34,195 bases of DNA from Pseudofulvimonas gallinarii (GTDB lineage Bacteria > Pseudomonadota > Gammaproteobacteria > Xanthomonadales > UBA2363), in the NCBI RefSeq assembly GCF_004343305.1, contig NZ_SMAF01000029.1, positions 1-34,195 on the forward strand, written 5' to 3'. A program made the position numbers and the translations under genes. The notes beneath the pieces were generated by a model. The model had not been told where the DNA came from. It saw only the letters and a list, made by a program, of their open reading frames with translations, and ran no database searches. Position 1 is the stretch's first letter. Each line of letters starts with the position of its first letter. This document shows, piece after piece, positions 20,262-32,084 of this stretch.

Positions 20262-21521
20262 TCAGCGCCGCTGCGTGCGGCGCGTCGTCGCCGGCCGCTG
20301 TGCATGGAGCACGCGGTCCAGCTGGATCCAGTCGACTTCGGGCAGGTTGAGGTAGCGGTCCATCGCCACCGGCAGCAGGCCGGCCGGCACGTAGCTCTCG
20401 CTGTTCCATACGAAGGCGACGCCGAAGCGGCGGTCGGGCAGGAAGCCGATCATGCCGCGATAACCCTGCACCGCGCCGGCATGGAAGATCATCCGTTCGC
20501 CGGCGTAATCCATGATCCGCCAGCCCAGCCCGTAGGAGGCGCTGCGCAGGCGCTGCGTGCGCCAGCCGGTGCCGCGGATCTCGTAGGGTGTCTCGACCTG
20601 CGGCGTATGCAGCTCGGCCAGCAGTTCCGGCGGCAGTACGTCCGGGAAACCGCCCATCTGCGCGATCAGCCACTGGCCCAGGTCCTTGGCGCTGGCATTG
20701 ATGCCGGCCGCGGGTGCGACGCGATAGTAGGTGTCCTTGGGGGTCTCCAGCGTCAGCCGCCCCGACCGGAGCACATGCGGGCGTGCCCAGTTGCTGCTGG
20801 ACTCCAGCGCCTCGCGGCCATGCGTGGCGGTGTGCATGCCCAGGGGCGTGAAGATGCGCTTCTCGACCTGGAACGAATAGAAGTTGCCGGTGGTCGCGAA
20901 CACCATGTCGCCGATCAGGCTGAAGGCGACGTTCTGATAGCCGAAGCAGTCGCCGACGCTGCAGGTCATCGGGATCGACTGCAGCGTCTCGACCAGCACC
21001 GGATAGGGTTCGTTGGCTTCCAGGCGGCGATCCAGCGTGTTGAAGGGCAGCCCGACGCGATGGCTGAGTACGTCGCGCAGGGTCAGACGGCTGGTGTCTT
21101 CCGGATTCGCCAGCGCCAGGCCGGGCAGCCACGGCTGCACGTGCATGTCCCAGTCGAGCACGCCTTCCTGCACCAGTTGCGCCGCGACCGTGGCGGCGAA
21201 CGCCTTCGACAGCGAGGCGAGCCGGAAGACGGTGTCGGCATCGACGGCCGCCTGGCTGGCCACGTCGGTGACGCCGGCGCCTTCGGCCATGAGGACGCGG
21301 CCTTCGTGCACGACGACGCCGGCGAGGCCGGCCACCTGCGGCACGTCGGCAATCCGCTTCATCAGGTCGCTGATGTCGCTGGCCAGTGACTGCACCCGCT
21401 GCTGCTCCGGCGGCAGCGGCGTGGCGATCGAGGCGCGCCCGACCAGATCGGGGGCGGCGCCGATTGCCGGTGTGACCCCGGCGAACAGGCAGACGGCGGC
21501 GATGTACGGCAGGAAACGCAT
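20262..21521 (-). CDS. Serine beta-lactamase-like hydrolase (class C/PBP fold)
   Basis: A 419-residue exported protein of the beta-lactamase/DD-peptidase superfamily. A signal peptide covers about residues 1-22. The catalytic SxxK is S103-LS-K106 (RLASLSKAF), the second motif is Y195-Q-N197 and the third position is H347-A-G349 in place of the KTG of class C lactamases; the HxG form is typical of the esterase, EstB-like and penicillin-binding relatives. So it is probably a peptidase or esterase rather than an antibiotic-resistance enzyme. Two close cysteines (C187 and C192) may form a disulfide. It is transcribed on the minus strand, divergent from lemA with a 75-base spacer. Confidence 0.85.
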   Translation of the reverse strand: MRFLPYIAAVCLFAGVTPAIGAAPDLVGRASIATPLPPEQQRVQSLASDISDLMKRIADVPQVAGLAGVVVHEGRVLMAEGAGVTDVASQAAVDADTVFRLASLSKAFAATVAAQLVQEGVLDWDMHVQPWLPGLALANPEDTSRLTLRDVLSHRVGLPFNTLDRRLEANEPYPVLVETLQSIPMTCSVGDCFGYQNVAFSLIGDMVFATTGNFYSFQVEKRIFTPLGMHTATHGREALESSSNWARPHVLRSGRLTLETPKDTYYRVAPAAGINASAKDLGQWLIAQMGGFPDVLPPELLAELHTPQVETPYEIRGTGWRTQRLRSASYGLGWRIMDYAGERMIFHAGAVQGYRGMIGFLPDRRFGVAFVWNSESYVPAGLLPVAMDRYLNLPEVDWIQLDRVLHAQRPATTRRTQRR

Positions 21522-21596: not shown

Positions 21597-22181
21597 ATGT
21601 CCTGGGTCATTCTCGCGGTAATCGTCGGCCTCGTGCTCTGGGCCGTCGGCATCTACAACGGCCTTGTCATGGCGCGCAACGCGTACAAGAACGCCTTCGC
21701 GCAGATCGACGTCCAGCTGACGCGTCGCTATGACCTGATCCCGAACCTCGTCGAGATCGCCAAGAAGTACATGGCGCACGAGCGCGAGACGCTGGAAGCC
21801 GTGATCCAGGCGCGCAACGCCGCCGTCAGCGGCCTCGGCCAGGCCAAGGGCAATCCGGGCGACCCGGCGGCCATGCAGCAGCTGTCCGGTGCCGAGAACC
21901 AGCTGTCCGGCGCCCTCGGTCGACTGTTCGCGCTGTCCGAAGCGTATCCGGACCTCAAGGCCAACCAGACCATGATGCAGCTCAGCGAGGAACTGACCTC
22001 GACGGAGAACAAGGTCGCGTTCGCGCGCCAGGCCTACAACGACGCCGTGATGAACTACAACAACCGGCGCGAGGTCTTCCCGAGCAGCTTCATCGCCAAT
22101 ACGTTCGCGTTCCAGCCGGCCAGCCTGCTGGAGATCGAGAACGAGGAAATGCGCAAGGCCGTGCGCGTCGATTTCGGCTGA
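21597..22181 (+). CDS. lemA: LemA family protein
   Basis: A 194-residue protein with an N-terminal membrane helix (about 2-22) and a long four-helix-like domain. The family features are the start of the domain, YNGLVMARNAYKNAFAQIDVQL, followed by RRYDLIPNLVEIAKKYMAHE, and near the end the YNNRREVFPSS and FQPASLLEIE elements. The ribosome site is AGGAGGT five bases before the ATG. Function is poorly defined; the gene is very often next to a membrane-bound M48 peptidase, as it is here (26 bases downstream), so a shared role in membrane-protein quality control is inferred. Confidence 0.93.
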   Translation: MSWVILAVIVGLVLWAVGIYNGLVMARNAYKNAFAQIDVQLTRRYDLIPNLVEIAKKYMAHERETLEAVIQARNAAVSGLGQAKGNPGDPAAMQQLSGAENQLSGALGRLFALSEAYPDLKANQTMMQLSEELTSTENKVAFARQAYNDAVMNYNNRREVFPSSFIANTFAFQPASLLEIENEEMRKAVRVDFG

Positions 22182-22206
22182 TCCCCGCACAGGCGTCTGA
22201 ACGGCG

Positions 22207-24207
22207 ATGGCGACGAACTTCTTCGAGCGCCAGCGACTGGCGCGCCGCGACAGCCAGCGGCTGGTCATCCTGTTCGGCATTGCCGTCATCGCCATCGTGG
22301 TGGCGGTGACGGCGGTCCTGATGGTGTTCCTCGGCCTGGGCGACAGCGGACGCGTCGCCCAGGGCAAGGGCATCCTGTTCTCGAACTGGAAGGTGATCGC
22401 CTGGACCGGAGGGCTTACGGTGGCGGCCATCGCCGGCGCCAGCCTGTTCCGCACCATCCAGTTGCGTGAAGGCGGCGCGGCGGTCGCGCGCAGCCTGGGC
22501 GGTACGGAAATCCCCCCGTCCAGCCGCGACCGCCACCACCAGCGCCTGCGCAACGTCGTCGAGGAGATCGCCATCGCCTCCGGCGTGCCGGTGCCTCAGA
22601 TCTTCGTGCTCGAACACGAACCGGGCATCAACGCCTTCGCCGCCGGACTGCGCACCACCGACGCCGCCATCGGCGTCACCCGCGGCGCGATCGAACAACT
22701 CAGCCGCGACGAGCTGCAGGGCGTCATCGCGCACGAGTTCAGCCATGTGCTCAACGGCGACATGCGCCTGAACCTGCGCCTGATCGGCTGGCTCGCCGGC
22801 ATCACCTTCCTCGCCGTCATCGGCCGCATCCTGATGCGTGCACGCGGCCGCAATTCCGGCGGCATCGTGATGTTCGGCGTCGCCTTGCTGGTGATCGGCT
22901 CGATCGGCCTGTTCTGCGCCCGCATGATCAAGGCCGGCATCTCGCGCAAGCGCGAATACCTGGCCGACGCCTCCGCCGTGCAGTTCACGCGGCAGAACGC
23001 CGGCCTGGCCGGCGCCCTGAAGAAGATCGCCGCCCATGCCCACGGCTCGACGCTGGAGGCGACAGATGCCGAGGAGGTCAGCCACATGATGTTCGGCGAT
23101 GGCGTCGGCTATTCGAAGCTGTTCGCCACGCATCCGCCGCTGGAAGAACGCATCCGCGCGCTGGAACCGGGCTTCAAGCTGACCGACCTGACCGCATGGA
23201 TCCGGCAGCAGAAGAGCGCCGATGTACGGACCGCGGCCGAAGAGCGCCGCGCACCCTTGCCGGACCTGGAATTCACCCGCGTGTTGGGTCCGGCCGGCGC
23301 TGCCATTCCCGCGCCGGTGATCATCGCCGGCCTGCCCGCGGCCGCATCCGCGGCGCTCGCACCCGGGGACGTCCTCGAACAGGTCGGCAGCCCGGGCGCC
23401 GACGACTACCGCACCGCCGGGCTGCTGCACGATTCGCTGCCCGCCGGCCTTGACGAGGCGGCGCACCAGCCCGACCTGGCGATGCCCGTGCTCGCCGCCC
23501 TGCTGCTGGCCGAGCCGGGCGCGATCCGCCAAGCGCAGCTGGCAGCCGTGGCGGAGAAATTCGACGCCAGGGCCGCTCAGCATGCCGATGCCCTCACGCG
23601 CCTGACGGCCGCCCTGCATCCGATGCAGCGCCTGCCGATCGCCGAGATCGCCTTCTCCTCGCTGCGGCGCATGCCGGCCGGCCATCTGCGCGATACGGCC
23701 GACGTCGTGCAGGCGCTGGTGGTCGCCGACCGCAACGTCAGCCTGTTCGAGTTCTGCCTCGGCTTCCTGCTGCGCCAGCACATCGACGAAGTACTGTCGC
23801 CCCGCGACGCCAAGGAAGGACGCAAGTCGCTGCCGGCGGTGCAGCCCGCGATCGGACTGGTGCTGTCGCTGCTGGCCGATGTCGGTCATCCCGACGACCG
23901 TCGCGCTGCCGAACGCGCGTTCGCCGCCGGCCTGGCCGAACTGGGCCAGAGCATCACGCTGAAGTTCGACCTGCCGCTGGACTGGTCGCTGCGGCTGGGC
24001 CCTGCGCTGGTCGAGCTCGACCAGCTCGGTCCTGTCGCCAAGTCGATGCTGATCGCGGCGATGACGCAGGCGATGGCGAACGACGGCCGCATCGACGTCG
24101 CCGAGGCCGAACTGCTGCGCACCACCTGCGCCGCGCTGCATTGCCCACTGCCGCCGCTGCTGCACGAGGCGCGCACCCGCCTGGCCGGCACGCCCACCGT
24201 CGACTGA
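22207..24207 (+). CDS. M48-family membrane metalloprotease with C-terminal TerB-like region
   Basis: A 666-residue inner-membrane zinc peptidase related to HtpX. Two helices lie at about 19-43 and 62-82, the zinc site is H176-EFS-H180 (HEFSHVLNGD), two more helices at about 190-210 and 218-242, and the third zinc ligand is E250 in RKREYLADASAVQF. The protease ends near residue 320. The remaining half, much longer than HtpX (about 290 residues), is soluble; its last part (SMLIAAMTQAMANDGRIDVAEAE) resembles TerB-like helical domains. It follows lemA after 26 bases and is surely in one transcript with it. The substrate is unknown; membrane or surface proteins are a guess from HtpX. Confidence 0.9.
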   Translation: MATNFFERQRLARRDSQRLVILFGIAVIAIVVAVTAVLMVFLGLGDSGRVAQGKGILFSNWKVIAWTGGLTVAAIAGASLFRTIQLREGGAAVARSLGGTEIPPSSRDRHHQRLRNVVEEIAIASGVPVPQIFVLEHEPGINAFAAGLRTTDAAIGVTRGAIEQLSRDELQGVIAHEFSHVLNGDMRLNLRLIGWLAGITFLAVIGRILMRARGRNSGGIVMFGVALLVIGSIGLFCARMIKAGISRKREYLADASAVQFTRQNAGLAGALKKIAAHAHGSTLEATDAEEVSHMMFGDGVGYSKLFATHPPLEERIRALEPGFKLTDLTAWIRQQKSADVRTAAEERRAPLPDLEFTRVLGPAGAAIPAPVIIAGLPAAASAALAPGDVLEQVGSPGADDYRTAGLLHDSLPAGLDEAAHQPDLAMPVLAALLLAEPGAIRQAQLAAVAEKFDARAAQHADALTRLTAALHPMQRLPIAEIAFSSLRRMPAGHLRDTADVVQALVVADRNVSLFEFCLGFLLRQHIDEVLSPRDAKEGRKSLPAVQPAIGLVLSLLADVGHPDDRRAAERAFAAGLAELGQSITLKFDLPLDWSLRLGPALVELDQLGPVAKSMLIAAMTQAMANDGRIDVAEAELLRTTCAALHCPLPPLLHEARTRLAGTPTVD

Positions 24208-24449: not shown

Positions 24450-26780
24450 ATGAATAGCAACATTGACGGCGCGGCAGCGCAGCCGCGTTTTCTTGTGCGC
24501 CAATGGCAGCGCCTGATGGCGGTACCGCTGGGCCGCCTGCTGCGCTGGCTGTTGTGGGTGGTGTTGGTGTTGCTGATCCTCGCAGTCGGTGCCTTCACGC
24601 TCTACGTGCTGTTGCCGGCCTCGACCATCCCCGCCTACGAGCCCATCGACGAGTATGTCTATGCCGACCAGGGCTGGGGCACGCAGATGGATGCGCCACA
24701 GCGGCAGCTCTGGTACTACACGCCACAGGGCACCTCGCTGCCGCAGGGCGTGCTGACCACAGCGATGCGCTACGACTGGTTCGTGCACCTGGAGATGCCG
24801 TTCGGCACCGCGCGTTTCGCCGATCCCGAACACATGCGCCGCTACCGCTTCCTGGTCGATCCGGAATCGACGCCGGCGAATCCGGACCAGCTGCCGGTGG
24901 GGTTCACGCGCCACTTCAGTCCTGCCATCGGCGAATACGTCCTCGACATCACCTGCTCGGCCTGCCACACCGGCGAGTTGCATTATCCGCGTGCCGACGG
25001 CCGTCGTGTCGCACTGCGCATCGACGGTGGCCAGGCGATGCACGCCTTCACCGACATGCAGCGCGGTTCCTTCGCGCCGACGCTGGCGGCGTCACTGATC
25101 GCCACCTACTTCAACCCGCCGAAGTTCAATCGCTTCGCCCGCAAGGTGATCGGCGCGCGCTATCCGGCCGGCAAGTCCGCGCTCAAGGAGGCGCTGTGGA
25201 GCACGATCAAGGCTCTGCTGGAAACCGGCCAGAACAATCCGCTGCGCCACCTGTATCCGGTGCGCGAGGGCTTCGGTCGCACCGATGCGCTGGGACGCAT
25301 CGCCAACACCGCCTTCGGCGACCATCTGGTGCCCGGCAACTACCAGGTCGCCGACGCGCCGGTCAGCTACCCGTATCTGTGGAACATCTGGAAGTTCGAC
25401 TGGGTGCAGTACAACGGTTCGGTCAGCCAGCCGCTGGCGCGCAACGTCGGCGAGGCGATGGGTGTCGGCGCGGTACTGCGACTGACCGATACCTACGGCA
25501 ATCCGCTGCCGAAGGACCAGCGGCTTGACAGCTCGGTCATGGTGCCGAACCTGGTGCGCATCGAGCACGCGCTGCAGCACCTGAAGCCGCCGGCCTGGCC
25601 GGAGGACCTGTTTGGCGCGGTCGACCCGGCCAAGGTCGAGCAGGGTCGCGAACTGTTCGAAAGCCACTGCCGCCACTGCCACGGCCCGCACGTCGCGAGC
25701 GCGGCGCAGCAGCAGGCCGAGGCGCCGGGCAAGCCCGGACCGTGGGCGCAGTGGCGGATCGAGGTCATCGATGTCGACCACATCGGCACCGACGCGACCG
25801 CCGCGCGCGCGTTCATCGACCGCCGGTACGACCTGACCGCGGCCGGCCTGGACCGCGATGAAATCGCCGGCCTCCTGCGTCCGCTGCTGGTCCGGCAGCT
25901 GGCGCGCGATGCGCGTTACCGGCTGCGGGAAGTCATCGACGGCCGCCGCGCGCTGGGCATGGACGTCACGCTGCTGGAAGCGCTGCTGGAGGCCTACCCG
26001 GATCCGGATTCACAGCCACAGCCCTTCCTGCCGCGCGACAGCTTCGCCGCGATAGAACTGGCGCTTGCATCGCCGGCACCGACGCAGGCGCCGCCGTTGC
26101 CTTGGGAATGCGACCTTGACTGCCACACCGACTGGCTGGCCTGGGACGTCACCGGTGCCGAAGCGGACATCGAACGGCAGCTGGCGCGGCTGGAACCGGC
26201 CTCGCTGACCGAAGGCGAAGGCCTCAACCTGCTCGGCCTGCTGATCAAGAACCGCTACTACCGCGAGAACGGCATCGACTACACGCGACAGCAGTGCATC
26301 GAAGGCTTCGGCACGCTGGACCTGCCGCAGCAGATCGCCGGCTACAAGCCGCGTCCGCTGGCGGGCGTGTGGGCGACGCCGCCATTCCTGCACAACGGCT
26401 CGGTGCCCAGCCTCTACGAGATGCTGTTGCCGCCCGACCGGCGCAGCAAGCGCTTTTTCGTCGGGCGTCGCGACTACGACCCGCTGCATGTCGGCTATGT
26501 CACCGAGCCGGACGAGGATGGCACCGACGACGGCTTCTGGCTGGATACCACGGTCAAGGGCAACAGCAACGCCGGCCACGGTTTCAGCGCCGACGCGCAG
26601 ACCTGGGCGAATCACCGCGCCGACCCTCGGGCGAATCCGCTGCCGCCCGGCGTGATCGGCCCGGCGTTCAGCGATGAACAGCGCTGGGCGCTGGTGGAAT
26701 ACCTGAAGGTGCATCGTGATCCGGAGACGCCCGCCGACTTCCAGTCGCCCGACTGCGGCCTGCCGGGGGTTGCGCCATGA
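24450..26780 (+). CDS. Membrane-anchored di-haem cytochrome c, RoxA/MauG-like
   Basis: A 776-residue periplasmic haem protein with a membrane anchor at about 31-53 (no cleavable signal). Haem c sites: C169-SA-C172-H173 and C407-RH-C410-H411. A third, unusual CxxxCH (C554-DLD-C558-H559) is also present. The C-terminal WATPPFLHNGSVPSLYEML is the signature shared by RoxA rubber oxygenases and di-haem peroxidases of the MauG type. Length exceeds the usual RoxA (about 650-680), partly through the anchor. Possible reactions are peroxidase or dioxygenase; the substrate is unknown. Start: ATG 24450 with AAAGGGGA six bases upstream, preferred over the longer open frame. Its stop overlaps the patatin gene start (ATGA), so the two are translated together. 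Confidence 0.8.
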   Translation: MNSNIDGAAAQPRFLVRQWQRLMAVPLGRLLRWLLWVVLVLLILAVGAFTLYVLLPASTIPAYEPIDEYVYADQGWGTQMDAPQRQLWYYTPQGTSLPQGVLTTAMRYDWFVHLEMPFGTARFADPEHMRRYRFLVDPESTPANPDQLPVGFTRHFSPAIGEYVLDITCSACHTGELHYPRADGRRVALRIDGGQAMHAFTDMQRGSFAPTLAASLIATYFNPPKFNRFARKVIGARYPAGKSALKEALWSTIKALLETGQNNPLRHLYPVREGFGRTDALGRIANTAFGDHLVPGNYQVADAPVSYPYLWNIWKFDWVQYNGSVSQPLARNVGEAMGVGAVLRLTDTYGNPLPKDQRLDSSVMVPNLVRIEHALQHLKPPAWPEDLFGAVDPAKVEQGRELFESHCRHCHGPHVASAAQQQAEAPGKPGPWAQWRIEVIDVDHIGTDATAARAFIDRRYDLTAAGLDRDEIAGLLRPLLVRQLARDARYRLREVIDGRRALGMDVTLLEALLEAYPDPDSQPQPFLPRDSFAAIELALASPAPTQAPPLPWECDLDCHTDWLAWDVTGAEADIERQLARLEPASLTEGEGLNLLGLLIKNRYYRENGIDYTRQQCIEGFGTLDLPQQIAGYKPRPLAGVWATPPFLHNGSVPSLYEMLLPPDRRSKRFFVGRRDYDPLHVGYVTEPDEDGTDDGFWLDTTVKGNSNAGHGFSADAQTWANHRADPRANPLPPGVIGPAFSDEQRWALVEYLKVHRDPETPADFQSPDCGLPGVAP

Positions 26781-28861
26781 ACGCGCATGGATCGCAGGAC
26801 GCGACGTTCACGCGCGACCCCGGCCGCGTCCACGGCGACGAGCGCGAGTGGCTGCGTGCACGCCGTGCGGCTGCCGGCCTGCCACCCCCGGATGACGACG
26901 AGGTCGGCCTTGCCCTGTCCGGGGGCGGCATCCGCTCGGCGGTGTTCAACCTCGGCCTGCTGCAGTCGCTGGCCAGGGCCGACCTGCTGCGCCGCGTCGA
27001 TGTGCTGTCCTCGGTGTCGGGTGGCGGCTACATCGCCAACTGTTTCCACTGGCTGCGCCACGTGCTGCCAGCGGCCGGCGACGACGTTTTCAAGGCGTGC
27101 CTGGCCGACGGTTCCGGCAACGTCCTCGACTGGCTGCGCCTCAACGGCAAGTTCCTCATCGCGTTCCAGGGCTTCTCGATGTGGACGCTGGTCGCCTCGA
27201 TCCTGGCGGCGACGCTGTTGAACCTGCTGGTGCTGGGGCCACCGTTGCTGCTCCTGCTCTGGCTGCTCAGCCGCGACTGGTGGACCGCGGAATGGCCGGG
27301 CTGGCTGGCCTGGTCGGGCGAGGCGGCGCCGGCCGGTCACGACGGCTTCTGGCTGCTACTGCGTGCCGGCCTGTGGATGCTGGTGGCCTTTCCCTTGGTC
27401 GCGGTGGTTTTCGGGTTCATCGTCGGCAGCCTGCGCGCCCGTTCGCAGGGCATGGTCCGGACCCTGCGCCTGTTCATGGGCAAGCTGCTGATGCTGTCCG
27501 TCGGACTGATCGGACTCGGACTGATTCCGCTCGCGGCGCGCTCGGGCGATGCCGCGCTCGCCGGTGCCTCCAGCGACTGGATGCGCCAGGCCGGCATCCA
27601 TCTCGACTATGCCGCCGCGCTGGCCCTGGGTGCCGTGCTGCTGCTGGTCGGGCAGGCACGGGCGCGCGCCGGTCGCGAGGGCCTCGCGATGCTGGGCCTG
27701 GCGTTGCTGGTGTACGGGGTGATCCTGCTCGGCTACTACCTCGCGGTGGAACTCGACGTCGTCACCAGCACCGCCTTCGCGGTCTGTTTCGGACTCTCGC
27801 TGCTGTTCGCCTTCACCTGCGACGTCAACCGCGTGTCGATGTTCGCCTACTACCGTTCGCGCCTGCTCGGCGCTTTCATGCCGCGCGTCGAAGGCGGCAT
27901 CCCGGAGCCGCGACCGGAGTTCCACCTGCATCGGCTGCGCCCCGAACATGGCGCGCCGTTGCCGGTCATCAACACCTGCCTGAACACCTGCAGCTCCAGC
28001 GATCCCAAGCGACAGGCACGCGCCGGCGAAAGCTTCTTCCTGACACCGCTGTGGCTGGGGTCGACGGCGACCGGATTCCGGCGCAGCGACGACTACGGCG
28101 GCGATGCCGGCACCATGGCCAGCGCGATGACCATTTCCGCCGCGGCGATCGATCCGGATACGCATGCGACCCGCGGCCGCGCGGTCAGCTTCCTGATGGC
28201 GCTGCTCAACGTGCGGCTGGGTTTCTGGGGCCTGAACCCCGATCGCACGCCGGCGCGCTGGGTGCCGCGCCTGTTGTGGTGGCAACTGCTGGGCCGCGAG
28301 ATGCTTGGCATCGGCCTGTCCGAATCGCACCGGCACATCCATCTCAGCGACGGCGGCCATTTCGAGAACCTGGGGCTCTACGAGCTGATCCGCCGTCGCC
28401 TGCGCTACATCGTCGTCAGCGATGCCGGCGCCGATCCGGACCTGGATTTCAGTGATCTTGGCCGCGCCATTGAACGCGTGCGCGTCGATTTCGGCGCCGA
28501 GATCGAACTGGCGGTCGATGGCCTCGCGCGCGAGCGCGAGCGCGGCGCCGCGCAGCGGCCCTGGCGCCTTGGCCGCATCCGCTACGCCGACGGCAGCACC
28601 GGGCAGATCCTCTACCTGCGGCCGATGATGTGCGAAGGACTCAGCGCCGACATCTACACCTACTGGCGCGGCCACCCGCTGTTTCCGGACGAACCGACCT
28701 CGAACCAGTTTTTCGGCGAGGCGCAGTTCGAGGCCTATCGCGCCCTGGGCTGGGAGATCGCCAGCCGGCTGACCGGCAGCGATGGCTGCGCATCGGTGGC
28801 CGAATGGTTCCAGCGCCTGGCCGACCAGGAAGCGCCGGTACCCGAGGCGGTGGCGTCATGA
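26777..28861 (+). CDS. Patatin-like phospholipase with internal membrane region
   Basis: A 694-residue lipase-like protein. The oxyanion loop S48-GGG-I-R53 and the nucleophile elbow SSVSGGGY (Ser 81; the first Gly of GxSxG is Ser) form the N-terminal half. The catalytic Asp is D525 in SDGGHFENLGLYEL, the DGG motif of the Ser-Asp dyad. Between them are about six hydrophobic helices, at about 135-165, 180-225, 232-255, 272-295 and 300-350, so the active site would sit at the membrane surface. Hydrolysis of membrane lipids or acyl esters is likely. Its ATG overlaps the cytochrome c stop, implying a shared pathway with that protein. Start fits: a normal RBS is lacking, as expected for coupled translation. 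Confidence 0.87.
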   Translation: MNAHGSQDATFTRDPGRVHGDEREWLRARRAAAGLPPPDDDEVGLALSGGGIRSAVFNLGLLQSLARADLLRRVDVLSSVSGGGYIANCFHWLRHVLPAAGDDVFKACLADGSGNVLDWLRLNGKFLIAFQGFSMWTLVASILAATLLNLLVLGPPLLLLLWLLSRDWWTAEWPGWLAWSGEAAPAGHDGFWLLLRAGLWMLVAFPLVAVVFGFIVGSLRARSQGMVRTLRLFMGKLLMLSVGLIGLGLIPLAARSGDAALAGASSDWMRQAGIHLDYAAALALGAVLLLVGQARARAGREGLAMLGLALLVYGVILLGYYLAVELDVVTSTAFAVCFGLSLLFAFTCDVNRVSMFAYYRSRLLGAFMPRVEGGIPEPRPEFHLHRLRPEHGAPLPVINTCLNTCSSSDPKRQARAGESFFLTPLWLGSTATGFRRSDDYGGDAGTMASAMTISAAAIDPDTHATRGRAVSFLMALLNVRLGFWGLNPDRTPARWVPRLLWWQLLGREMLGIGLSESHRHIHLSDGGHFENLGLYELIRRRLRYIVVSDAGADPDLDFSDLGRAIERVRVDFGAEIELAVDGLARERERGAAQRPWRLGRIRYADGSTGQILYLRPMMCEGLSADIYTYWRGHPLFPDEPTSNQFFGEAQFEAYRALGWEIASRLTGSDGCASVAEWFQRLADQEAPVPEAVAS

Positions 28862-28943: not shown

Positions 28944-30611
28944 ATGGGCCGATCGCAGGGAATGTTGCGGCTGGGCATGGCATGCCTGCTGCTGGTGCTG
29001 GCATCGCGGGTCTGGGCGCAACCCGTGGTCGAAGTGACGCCGGATTTCGACCGCCTGGACCTGACCCCGCATCTGGAAATCCTCGAGGATGTCGAAGGCG
29101 AACTGGACTTCGACGCCGCACGCAGGGCGACCGGCTACGCGCCGGTGCCCGCCGCCGGTCCCAACTTCGGCTTCTCCACGTCGGTGTGGTGGGTGCGTTT
29201 CGCCGTGCACAACACGGGCAGCGAACCGGCGGTGCTGCTGCTGCGCCAGGACTATCCGCTGATCGACCACCTGGACCTGTGGCTGCCAGATGGACGTGGT
29301 GGCACGCGCCACCTGCATACCGGCGACCGCAAGCCTTTCGCCAGCCGCGATATCGACCTGCGCAACTTCGTGTCGCAGCTGGTCGTGCCGGCGGGCGAGA
29401 CCGTGCCGGTCCTGCTGCGCTACGCCACCGGCGGCAGCATGGACATCAGCCTCAAGCTGTTCGCGCCCGTGCCGCTGCTGGAACAGGTCGGCGTCGAGCA
29501 GCTCGCCTACGGCATCTACTACGGCGGCTTCATCGCCCTGATCTTCTACAACCTCATCATTTTCGTGGCCGTGCGCGACCGGGTGTTCTTCTGGTACCTG
29601 CTGTACGCGGTGGTGTTCGGCCTGCATTTCGGCGTCCACAACGGTTTCAGCTACCAGTTCCTGTGGCCGAACAGCCCGGCCTGGGCGAACCAGAGCCTGG
29701 TCGTGCTGCTGGGACTGTCGCTGATCTTCGCGTTGCAGTTCACACGCGGCTTCCTCGACGCCCAGCGCATGCTGCCGCGCTGCGACCGCATCGCACAGAT
29801 CCTGCAGGCAATGGCCGGGCTGATCGTGCTGGGCTCATTCGTGCTGCCGTACGGCACCGTGGTGGTGCCGATCGCCCACGTCACCATCCTGGTCACCGCC
29901 CTGATCCTGTTCATGGGCACGCGTTCACTGCTCGCGGGCTACCGTCCGGCGCGCTACTTCATGCTGGCGTGGATCGCCATGCTGCTGACCGTGTTCGCCT
30001 ACATGCTGAAGGCGTTCGGCATCCTGCCCAACAACGTGCTCACCCAGAACGGCTTCCAGATCGGTTCCCTGCTGGAAATGACACTGCTGTCGGTGGCGCT
30101 CTCCGCGCGCGTGCGCGACCTGCAGAAATACAGCTTCACCGATCCACTGACCGGGTTGCTCAACCGCCGCTCCTTCGACCAGCACCTGGAACTGGAATTC
30201 CTTCGCGGCCGCCAGGGCGGGCCGGTGTCACTGCTGGTCATCGACATCGACCACTTCAAGCGCTTCAACGACAGCCATGGCCACGCCGCCGGCGACAAGG
30301 CCATCCGCCTGGTGGCGCGCCACCTGGACCGCAACCTGCGTCCCGGTGATGCCGTTTATCGCTACGGCGGTGAGGAATTCGCGGCGATCCTGCCCGGCGC
30401 CGACCTCGATCAGGCCCGGGACGTTGCCCAGCGCCTGCTGGGACCCGTCGACAGTGGCGGCATCACCGACGACCCGATAACCCTCAGCATCGGCGTGGCC
30501 TGCAGTGATGGTCTGCCGGAACCGGTGGCGGCGCGCCTGTTCGAACTGGCCGACCAGGCCCTGTACCAGGCGAAGACCGAAGGTCGTCACCGCGCCGTCG
30601 CGGCGACCTGA
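28944..30611 (+). CDS. 7TMR-DISM sensor diguanylate cyclase (GGDEF)
   Basis: A 555-residue inner-membrane enzyme making cyclic di-GMP. A signal peptide (about 1-26, ending at ASRVWAQP), a periplasmic 7TMR-DISM ligand-binding domain (about 28-175), seven membrane helices (about 185-385) and a C-terminal GGDEF domain (about 395-550) are seen. The active site is GGEEF at 475-479 (intact) with an inhibitory site RPGD at 466-469, exactly five residues earlier. LTGLLNRRSFDQ and LVIDIDHFKRFNDSHGH are the typical substrate-binding parts. No EAL domain. Start: ATG 28944 (after GAGG) or ATG 28962. A -10-like TACACT precedes it, so it may be transcribed separately from the patatin gene. Confidence 0.93.
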   Translation: MGRSQGMLRLGMACLLLVLASRVWAQPVVEVTPDFDRLDLTPHLEILEDVEGELDFDAARRATGYAPVPAAGPNFGFSTSVWWVRFAVHNTGSEPAVLLLRQDYPLIDHLDLWLPDGRGGTRHLHTGDRKPFASRDIDLRNFVSQLVVPAGETVPVLLRYATGGSMDISLKLFAPVPLLEQVGVEQLAYGIYYGGFIALIFYNLIIFVAVRDRVFFWYLLYAVVFGLHFGVHNGFSYQFLWPNSPAWANQSLVVLLGLSLIFALQFTRGFLDAQRMLPRCDRIAQILQAMAGLIVLGSFVLPYGTVVVPIAHVTILVTALILFMGTRSLLAGYRPARYFMLAWIAMLLTVFAYMLKAFGILPNNVLTQNGFQIGSLLEMTLLSVALSARVRDLQKYSFTDPLTGLLNRRSFDQHLELEFLRGRQGGPVSLLVIDIDHFKRFNDSHGHAAGDKAIRLVARHLDRNLRPGDAVYRYGGEEFAAILPGADLDQARDVAQRLLGPVDSGGITDDPITLSIGVACSDGLPEPVAARLFELADQALYQAKTEGRHRAVAAT

Positions 30612-31091: not shown

Positions 31092-32084
31092 TCAGCGCGC
31101 GCTGCCGGACTTCAAGGCCGGTCCGATGATCTCGATGCGATCGGTCCAGAGGTAACCGTCGAACGTCGCGGGAACGTCGCCCAGGGACGCCGGCGAATCC
31201 AGTCCCCTGGTGCGCGGCCGCGTCAGCGCGGTCGAGCCGGTGAGGATGAGCTCGCTGCCGGCCGCCTTGAATCGCTGTTGCAGGCGGTTGGGCCAGCCCC
31301 ACATCCAGGCCGCGACATTGACCGGAATGGCGACCAGCGTGTTCCCGCACGCTTCCGGCATCACGCCGGTCCATGCCATCAGCAGATACCGCTTCACGCA
31401 ACGCTCGACGCCAGGCCGCGTGAAACCGCGCAGCCCTTCAATGCGTCCGGTCGCGCGAACCACCGGTTCCTCACCGCCGTATACGCCCCAGACGCGCGCG
31501 CGCCAGGACGGTCGCTCGGCCAGCATGACGGCAAGCCGGTCGCCCTCGCCGGCATCACGGCTCTTGAAGTTGATGAGGAAACGCCCTTCCGGAAAGGCCT
31601 CGAAGACCTCGGCCAGGCTGGGGATCTGGCCGATGCCCTGGCCGCGCAGGGGAAAGCTGCGTCCGCCATCGGCGCTGTAACCATGGCCGATGTCCAGCGC
31701 CTTCAGCCTTGCCAGGTCGTGGTCACGGGTTCGGCCCGTGCCATTGGTGCGGCAGTCCAGCGTCCAGTCGTGGAACACGGCGAAGTGGCCGTCGGTGGTC
31801 GGATGCACGTCGAGTTCGACGACATCCGCGCCGGCATCGAAGGCGGCCTGCATGGAACGGATCGTGTTCTCGATGTAGTCGTGTCGCGGCGGTTCGATCA
31901 GGTCTGCCGTGCAGGTATCGCGGTCGACGTCCTGCCTGCTGTGGGTCTGGTGCACGCCGAGATGCGCGATCAGGCGTGGCCGGCCATCGCCGGCCGGTGC
32001 GAGCCAGGCCGCGTTCACGAGGTAGACCGTCAGCAGCGCGGCAAGCAGCGCAAGGGCGATGCCGCGTTTCCGGTGGCGCTTCAT
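31092..32084 (-). CDS. Glycerophosphodiester phosphodiesterase (GDPD) family protein
   Basis: A 330-residue protein with an N-terminal membrane or signal helix (about 8-26) and a GDPD TIM-barrel. GDPD enzymes cleave glycerophosphodiesters to an alcohol and glycerol 3-phosphate. Metal and catalytic residues: the first box is IAH41-L-G (usually HRG), then E72-N-T, E90-LD92-V, and H105-D106 in FHDWTLDCRTNGTG. Gly-Tyr-Ser, SLAEVFEAFPEG and INFKSRD follow in their normal places, and the helix-rich C-terminus DSPASLGDVPATFDGYLWTDRIE ends the barrel. The HRG to HLG change removes the usual Arg that contacts the phosphate. The membrane helix suggests action outside the cytoplasm. Transcribed alone on the minus strand. 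Confidence 0.88.
   Translation of the reverse strand: MKRHRKRGIALALLAALLTVYLVNAAWLAPAGDGRPRLIAHLGVHQTHSRQDVDRDTCTADLIEPPRHDYIENTIRSMQAAFDAGADVVELDVHPTTDGHFAVFHDWTLDCRTNGTGRTRDHDLARLKALDIGHGYSADGGRSFPLRGQGIGQIPSLAEVFEAFPEGRFLINFKSRDAGEGDRLAVMLAERPSWRARVWGVYGGEEPVVRATGRIEGLRGFTRPGVERCVKRYLLMAWTGVMPEACGNTLVAIPVNVAAWMWGWPNRLQQRFKAAGSELILTGSTALTRPRTRGLDSPASLGDVPATFDGYLWTDRIEIIGPALKSGSAR

Follow-up and report, generated by a model that had tools for sequence, protein, structure and literature searches.

The DNA analysed here, referred to as the window, is the 34,195-nt contig NZ_SMAF01000029.1 of Pseudofulvimonas gallinarii, whose forward strand carries the gene of a RoxA-like di-haem cytochrome, followed by the genes of a patatin/cPLA2-type lipase and of a sensor diguanylate cyclase (Table 1). 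A first-pass annotation had reported an ATGA that joins the first two genes and had read them as a two-gene unit. The coordinates of this overlap and the pair itself were confirmed, but the cyclase gene, which lies 82 nt downstream of the lipase gene on the same strand, had been missed, and the unit is likely larger, extending to this third gene. With a confidence little better than even, we propose that the two overlapping genes form the heart of a bacterial module for fatty-acid oxygenation, of the oxylipin type. A purine-rich stretch precedes the ATG of the cytochrome gene. A promoter scan gave 0 promoter-like sites, and 3 terminator-like sites versus 2.8 in shuffled sequences, all of them intragenic, so that it was uninformative on common transcription.

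Table 1. Coordinates of the features in the window
Feature	Coordinates	Strand	Basis or remark
Di-haem cytochrome, NF040606 family, RoxA-like, 776 aa	24450..26780	+	ATG 24450, TGA 26780
Membrane anchor helix of the cytochrome, residues 37-55	24558..24614	+	Hydropathy peak; model helix 27-54
Haem-binding motif 1, CSACH (169-173)	24954..24968	+	Both Cys and His invariant in 35/35
Haem-binding motif 2, CRHCH (407-411)	25668..25682	+	Both Cys and His invariant in 35/35
MauG/RoxA-type signature FLHNGSVP (646-653)	26385..26408	+	H648, N649 and G650 invariant in 35/35
ATGA stop/start overlap of cytochrome and lipase genes	26777..26780	+	4-base overlap in 18/26 loci
Patatin/cPLA2-type lipase, 694 aa, polytopic membrane protein	26777..28861	+	ATG 26777, TGA 28861
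Oxyanion-hole-type motif SGGGIRS (48-54)	26918..26938	+	S48-A55 invariant in 18/18
Predicted catalytic Ser81 (SVSGGG)	27017..27019	+	Invariant in 18/18
Insertion separating the catalytic halves, residues 135-347, with six predicted membrane helices	27179..27817	+	Hydropathy, model helices, loop charge
Predicted catalytic Asp525 (DGG)	28349..28351	+	D525 and G526 invariant in 18/18
Sensor diguanylate cyclase, 7TMR-DISMED2 + 7TMR-DISM_7TM + GGDEF, 555 aa, inferred start	28944..30611	+	Pfam
Serine beta-lactamase-fold gene	20262-21521	-	Pfam Beta-lactamase, 206.9 bits
LemA-family gene, then M48/HtpX-like protease with long C-terminal extension	21597-24207	+	Just upstream of the cytochrome gene
Glycerophosphodiester phosphodiesterase (GDPD) family gene	31092-32084	-	Convergent to the unit

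The cytochrome and the lipase

The window cytochrome has a single N-terminal membrane helix, followed by a large domain that holds both haem-binding motifs and the FLHNGSVP signature, just as the annotation of a membrane-anchored di-haem protein had it. It scored 491.1 bits with NF040606 (di-heme-cytochrome C peroxidase; cut-off 150 bits) and 57.6 bits with Pfam RoxA-like_Cyt-c (cut-off 26.7), and with the NCBIfam models of RoxA, RoxB and RoxC it reached 37.9-44.1 bits, far under their cut-offs of 900-1000. When its AlphaFold model (pLDDT 85.4) was compared with 308 chains preselected by Foldseek, the best fold in the Protein Data Bank (PDB) was that of RoxA (4b2n; Z 14.5, 405 aligned residues, 4.2 Å, 20% identity) and the MauG entries came next (Z 8.5-9.5), which bears out the RoxA/MauG-type identity proposed earlier. 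Classical cytochrome c peroxidases had no row among these preselected chains, which excludes nothing. The FLHNGSVP signature aligns with PYFHNGSVP of RoxA, residues H710 and W311 are invariant in 35/35 aligned cytochromes, and H710 aligns with the His of the GNDNGGH stretch of RoxA. The protein was therefore found to combine the RoxA fold with two CxxCH motifs and an HNGSVP-type motif. Haem of the c type is attached in the periplasm, which places the haem domain on that side of the inner membrane. Two further candidates were discarded. The first, CDLDCH as a third haem site (a CX3CH look-alike), has Gln or Trp in place of the His in several relatives and is missing from others; as this His is not kept, the Cys pair probably forms a disulphide. 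The second, a fatty acid cis-trans isomerase, belongs to a family absent from the Pfam matches of the cytochrome.

The patatin-type assignment of the lipase held at the level of the superfamily: the GGG oxyanion motif, the nucleophile-loop Ser, the Asp of DGG and the fold of the patatin/cPLA2 superfamily were all found, and Pfam Patatin (PF01734) was matched at E ≤ 0.01 by 18/18 aligned members of the lipase family. The window protein itself, however, matched this model over residues 45-89 only, with 26.1 bits, just below the 27.7 cut-off, and cPLA2 was nearer. Its AlphaFold model (pLDDT 83.6) was closest to human group IV cPLA2 (Z 25.3-28.3 over four entries, among them 5izr with Z 28.3, 378 aligned residues and 5.4 Å, and 1cjy with Z 26.4, 391 aligned residues and 3.7 Å), whereas CapE (Z 18.6), PlpD (18.4) and patatin (4pka, 15.9) scored lower. 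In a profile search against PDB sequences, cPLA2 likewise came first, weakly (E 0.004). Pfam PLA2_B was not found in the window lipase at E ≤ 0.01, and was present in 1/18 family members (E 0.0036). In animals, cPLA2 releases the fatty acids from which prostaglandins are made.

The basic loops of the lipase point to a cytosolic location of its two catalytic halves. The inner-membrane site of the earlier proposal needs a proviso, since the two active parts would not share one face, the catalytic halves being predicted cytosolic and the haem domain periplasmic. In three genomes (G255, G257 and G258; loci L029, L031 and L032) the lipase match has one internal stop, a sequencing error or a sign of decay.

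Conservation of the pair and its neighbours

A single scan of species genomes, queried with the cytochrome of the window, found 42 relatives, which together with the window make 43 loci. Because the query was the window's own protein this set leans to close kin, and many of the loci compared are from related genomes, so that the counts are not independent. The lipase gene was found directly downstream of the cytochrome gene in 26/43 loci; in a further 4 it lies at another position of the locus, as it does in L035 (the same place as L145), where it was detected by profile. In 18 of the 26 loci the gap was exactly -4 (14 ATGA, 3 GTGA and 1 TTGA), and this 4-base overlap recurs in Lysobacter/Arenimonas, Steroidobacteraceae, Hahella and Marinobacterium. 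Judged from the sequences, the overlap is more than chance, given that it is exact in so many loci, even though many of these are related. Lipase relatives of some kind were present in 40/43 genomes.

The annotation had stated that a pairing confined to this genome would speak against it, and the pairing extends well beyond. In an even sample at the order level (200 genomes), NF040606 was found in at least 14 genomes and a lipase orthologue (at least 627 bits) in at least 8; these counts, as those of the class and Pseudomonadales searches, are lower bounds, with only 4-6 candidates scored per genome. Each of the 8 orthologues found shares its contig with an adjoining NF040606 gene; the neighbour is the long cytochrome for 7 of them and the short one for the eighth (G997), which is cut by the contig end. 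More distant lipases (best stretch up to 350 bits) were seen in 20 further genomes of the order sample, close to a cytochrome in 3 of them (G954, G964 and G980). Of the 14 NF040606 genomes, 3 are left: G1015 has SMP-30 and a catalase relative, G1122 has a P450, and in G1059 the contig ends. A literature search on the cytochrome-lipase pair found no paper, but most subscription journals were outside its coverage, so that novelty is not proven.

In relatives, a second haem enzyme often stands beside the cytochrome. A second, shorter RoxA-like cytochrome of about 560 aa was present in 20/43 loci (535 and 572 bits with NF040606 for the two scanned), and a catalase relative was encoded 8-148 nt downstream of the cytochrome in 6/43. 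Six loci, from Colwellia, Thalassotalea, two Acidobacteria and one gammaproteobacterial metagenome-assembled genome, show the gene order SMP-30, cytochrome, catalase relative, and all three genes occur together with the lipase in L199 and L204. The profile of the catalase relatives best matched 3e4w (E 2e-14), which we take to be itself an allene-oxide-synthase relative, and also the coral allene oxide synthase-lipoxygenase 1u5u (E 7e-7), although true catalases were matched as well. Residues H70, R344 and Y348 are invariant in 7/7 catalase relatives, and we presume for them the roles known from catalases (haem Tyr, distal His). In both profile and residues, the catalase relatives appear to fit the allene-oxide-synthase type. 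On the plasmid pNGR234a of Sinorhizobium fredii a catalase, a cytochrome and another patatin (19% identity to the window lipase) lie together, and on two Methylobacterium plasmids a family lipase (162-163 bits) lies opposite a cytochrome, downstream of which come a regulator and a P450. Of the four other plasmid neighbourhoods viewed (Ruegeria, Rhizobium, Bradyrhizobium and pNGR234a itself), three had none of these partners. The Methylobacterium plasmid proteins annotated as 'hypothetical' in L045 and L050 are lipases of the window family, with Pfam Patatin in L045. In L160, L200 and L201 two RoxA-like cytochromes in tandem, with a catalase-related gene beside them, share one strand, which recalls the Pseudomonas aeruginosa genes PA2078-PA2077 plus a catalase relative.

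NF040606 was found in at least 48/293 Pseudomonadales genomes, and from 58 listed places 40 stretches were taken, non-randomly and in part from the same genome. A cytochrome above 150 bits was present in 38/40 stretches, and within 3 kb of it there was a catalase relative in 13 (1 also with lipase) and a P450 in 8. At least 12 genomes of the class sample (229 genomes) were above the NF040606 cut-off, the window's included; among the 14 stretches compared, 11 had a scored cytochrome, and of these 5 had a P450, 1 a catalase relative and 1 a lipase match (weak, 55 bits). Over 128 cytochrome rows (125 distinct), the partner was downstream on the same strand in 23/24 cases for the catalase relative and in 13/16 for the P450. 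In a tree of the 125 cytochromes, partner types cluster (32 changes versus a shuffled mean of 72.6, to which near-copies contribute), and the window clade, with its lipase partner, lies next to catalase-partner clades; this was a quick FastTree with long branches meeting, so its joins are used loosely. In principle, the genes might be neighbours through shared descent alone, with no functional link, since many loci come from related orders and the clustering in the tree is obtainable from near-copies alone. We give this next to no credence, as every orthologous lipase found in the order sample adjoins a cytochrome gene, and as the overlap is kept across lineages while the M48 protease, LemA, GDPD and DUF1304 genes of the window had no counterpart at 1e-10 in any other locus, 126 sequences being compared.

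A relative of the window cyclase (>200 bits) is encoded in 28/43 loci, the window counted, and the same three domains were found in L004, L012 and L023. Genes of one cluster with protein kinases were found in 8 loci, of which 7 belong to other phyla, and the kinase domain was seen in 3/4 members scanned. In the Acidobacteria and Gemmatimonadales loci (L033, L035-L037, L039, L042 and L044) the cluster gene is upstream of the cytochrome, with the kinase domain confirmed in L033, L042 and L044, and this signalling kinase takes the place that the cyclase holds in Gammaproteobacteria. The lipase and the cytochrome could then be only the sensor input, for lipid or redox state, of a membrane-signalling unit with no secreted product, and the frequency of the cyclase, its retention by the cytochrome in the five Peristeroidobacter/Steroidobacter loci where no lipase adjoins, and the kinase cluster would agree with that. 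We find this decidedly improbable, because a match above 40 bits to the window cyclase was present in only 5/40 Pseudomonadales loci (loci with enzyme partners or with none), at 54-186 bits.

Proposed release and oxygenation of a membrane fatty acid

For the fatty-acid oxygenation module, gene order is the main evidence, and its strongest argument is, as far as sequence can tell, the exchange among three types of haem enzyme after a common first enzyme. By analogy with PA2077/PA2078, a membrane fatty acid would be released, oxygenated and converted. In this model the lipase would cut acyl chains from phospholipid on the cytosolic face of the inner membrane, the freed unsaturated fatty acid would cross to the periplasmic side, and the cytochrome would add O2 to give a hydroperoxide. 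In relatives, a second haem enzyme would then convert the hydroperoxide, its type depending on the lineage (RoxA-like cytochrome, allene-oxide-synthase-like catalase relative or P450). In the window genome neither a second family cytochrome nor a catalase relative was found, so that the pathway there may stop at the hydroperoxide, or an enzyme encoded elsewhere may take over. Finally, the cyclase might sense the lipid product with DISMED2, its periplasmic domain, and adjust cyclic di-GMP (c-di-GMP) accordingly, which is the weakest step and a conjecture. Taken together, the pair and its neighbours suggest an unstudied bacterial route to oxidised-fatty-acid signals.

Several observations weigh against such a module. 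The fatty acid would have to cross the membrane, because the catalytic parts of the two proteins are predicted on different faces of it. In 17/43 loci the lipase is not directly downstream; these include L004-L007 and L010 (Peristeroidobacter/Steroidobacter), early contig ends (L006 and L020), Colwellia, Thalassotalea, Acidobacteria and Gemmatimonadales. In L004-L007 and L010 the locus holds the cyclase but lacks the lipase, relatives of which lie elsewhere in the genomes; the one separate lipase of this kind that was fetched (L133) has no cytochrome beside it. Distant lipases mostly stand apart from the cytochrome, since 11/14 stretches around more distant lipase relatives show none, and in 17/38 Pseudomonadales loci none of the three partners (lipase, catalase relative, P450) lies within 3 kb. 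In the window genome, no second NF040606 gene was found (7/7 candidates scored), and no catalase relative either (8/8 candidates scored, in a search without a positive control). No equivalent of the essential Phe317 of RoxA was identified: there is no Phe 15-18 residues past the invariant Trp311, and the 4b2n profile alignment leaves this region uncovered. A pattern search with PYFHNGSVP for PA2077-like sequences gave 0/398 genomes, a set for which the inclusion of P. aeruginosa is not stated. A hydroperoxide-type P450 was considered as a strong argument and dropped, because 6/6 P450 partner sequences inspected retain the ordinary Glu-Thr pair and have a normal Cys loop, and look like ordinary monooxygenases.

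The same genes could instead remove lipid peroxides, the cytochrome acting as a peroxidase with electrons of the respiratory chain and the lipase excising damaged acyl chains. NF040606 is named as a peroxidase family, the fold of the cytochrome is similar to the MauG type, and catalase-fold neighbours would fit peroxide defence equally well. Against this, RoxA, which is an oxygenase, is the better fold match than MauG (although fold rank is no proof of chemistry), and both the P450 partners and the diguanylate cyclase are left unexplained, so that we consider peroxide removal unlikely but a serious rival. The two steps of release and oxidation that the annotation had proposed are strengthened by the RoxA-like, catalase-relative and P450 partners, and in such a scheme oxidised lipid may be either made or repaired.

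A third possibility is that the cytochrome oxygenates another hydrophobic substrate (an isoprenoid, sterol, hopanoid or aromatic lipid), and that the lipase frees this substrate or an unrelated acyl group. Polyisoprene is cleaved by RoxA and RoxB, according to the parts of PMC6311187 cited here, and the cytochrome is present in Steroidobacter genomes. However, the RoxA, RoxB and RoxC cut-offs are widely missed, and the allene-oxide-synthase-like partner together with the cPLA2-like lipase points to fatty acids, which makes another substrate improbable.

As for the other genes of the window, the GDPD family gene could act on deacylated phospholipid. None of 5 window proteins matched a PADLOC defence system.

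Comparison with known systems

The nearest characterised parallel is the P. aeruginosa PA2078-PA2077 (FadCcp) operon with OdsR. In the portions of PMC4496055 drawn on here, PA2077 is a 10S-dioxygenase and PA2078 a 7,10-diol synthase, paralogues encoded in one operon; both are RoxA-like di-haem proteins with CAGCH/CAACH and PYFHNGSVP, which turn oleate into the 10-hydroperoxide and the 7,10-diol, and PA2077 is toxic when expressed without its partner. The products promote biofilm and serve in signalling (PMC5155153, PMC6377657, cited in part), and the fatty acid is described as scavenged from outside (PMC5155153). As in that operon, the window encodes an exported RoxA-like di-haem protein with two CxxCH motifs and an HNGSVP-type motif. 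The two P. aeruginosa genes are neighbours; a nearby paralogue was found in 20/43 loci, and none in the window genome. In contrast, the cited portions describe no lipase in the P. aeruginosa operon, the regulator there is the LysR-type OdsR and here a sensor cyclase, and the two proteins of 634 and 624 aa (1905 and 1875 bp) have cleaved signal peptides, whereas the window cytochrome is longer and anchored.

With RoxA and RoxB the window cytochrome shares the fold and the haem and MauG motifs, but it differs from them in having a lipase partner, in lying far off their NCBIfam cut-offs and in its low sequence identity. With MauG it shares the di-haem fold and the HNGSVP-type signature; the solved MauG chains, however, have about 355 residues as compared with 776, the fold score is lower than that of RoxA, and no methylamine dehydrogenase was found among 8 window proteins scanned.

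The animal eicosanoid cascade runs from cPLA2 to a haem dioxygenase and then to a P450 or, in corals, to allene oxide synthase. The proposed module would resemble it in the order of the steps, in the nearest solved fold of the lipase and in the match of the catalase partners to the coral enzyme. It differs in that the oxygenase is a c-type di-haem protein rather than a cyclooxygenase or lipoxygenase, and in the six predicted membrane helices of the lipase. The resemblance would be one of logic, and not a demonstrated homology of pathways. An eicosanoid-like bacterial cascade in its full form, supplied with substrate from within by a membrane lipase of the cPLA2 type that is translationally coupled to a di-haem dioxygenase, with three interchangeable hydroperoxide enzymes and, in Gammaproteobacteria, a DISMED2 cyclase that converts an oxidised membrane lipid into a c-di-GMP signal, is possible, and we regard it as doubtful. 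In the literature surveyed, bacterial oxylipin signalling amounts to one P. aeruginosa operon that oxidises external fatty acid. If the proposal is true, oxylipin signalling, through a conserved unit equipped with a lipase, hydroperoxide enzymes that can be exchanged and a sensor for c-di-GMP output, would be a wider bacterial trait, open to study in non-pathogenic species. The cPLA2-like lipase would then, by analogy, supply the substrate that P. aeruginosa scavenges, and the order of lipase, haem dioxygenase and P450 or catalase relative would have been assembled in bacteria as in animals.

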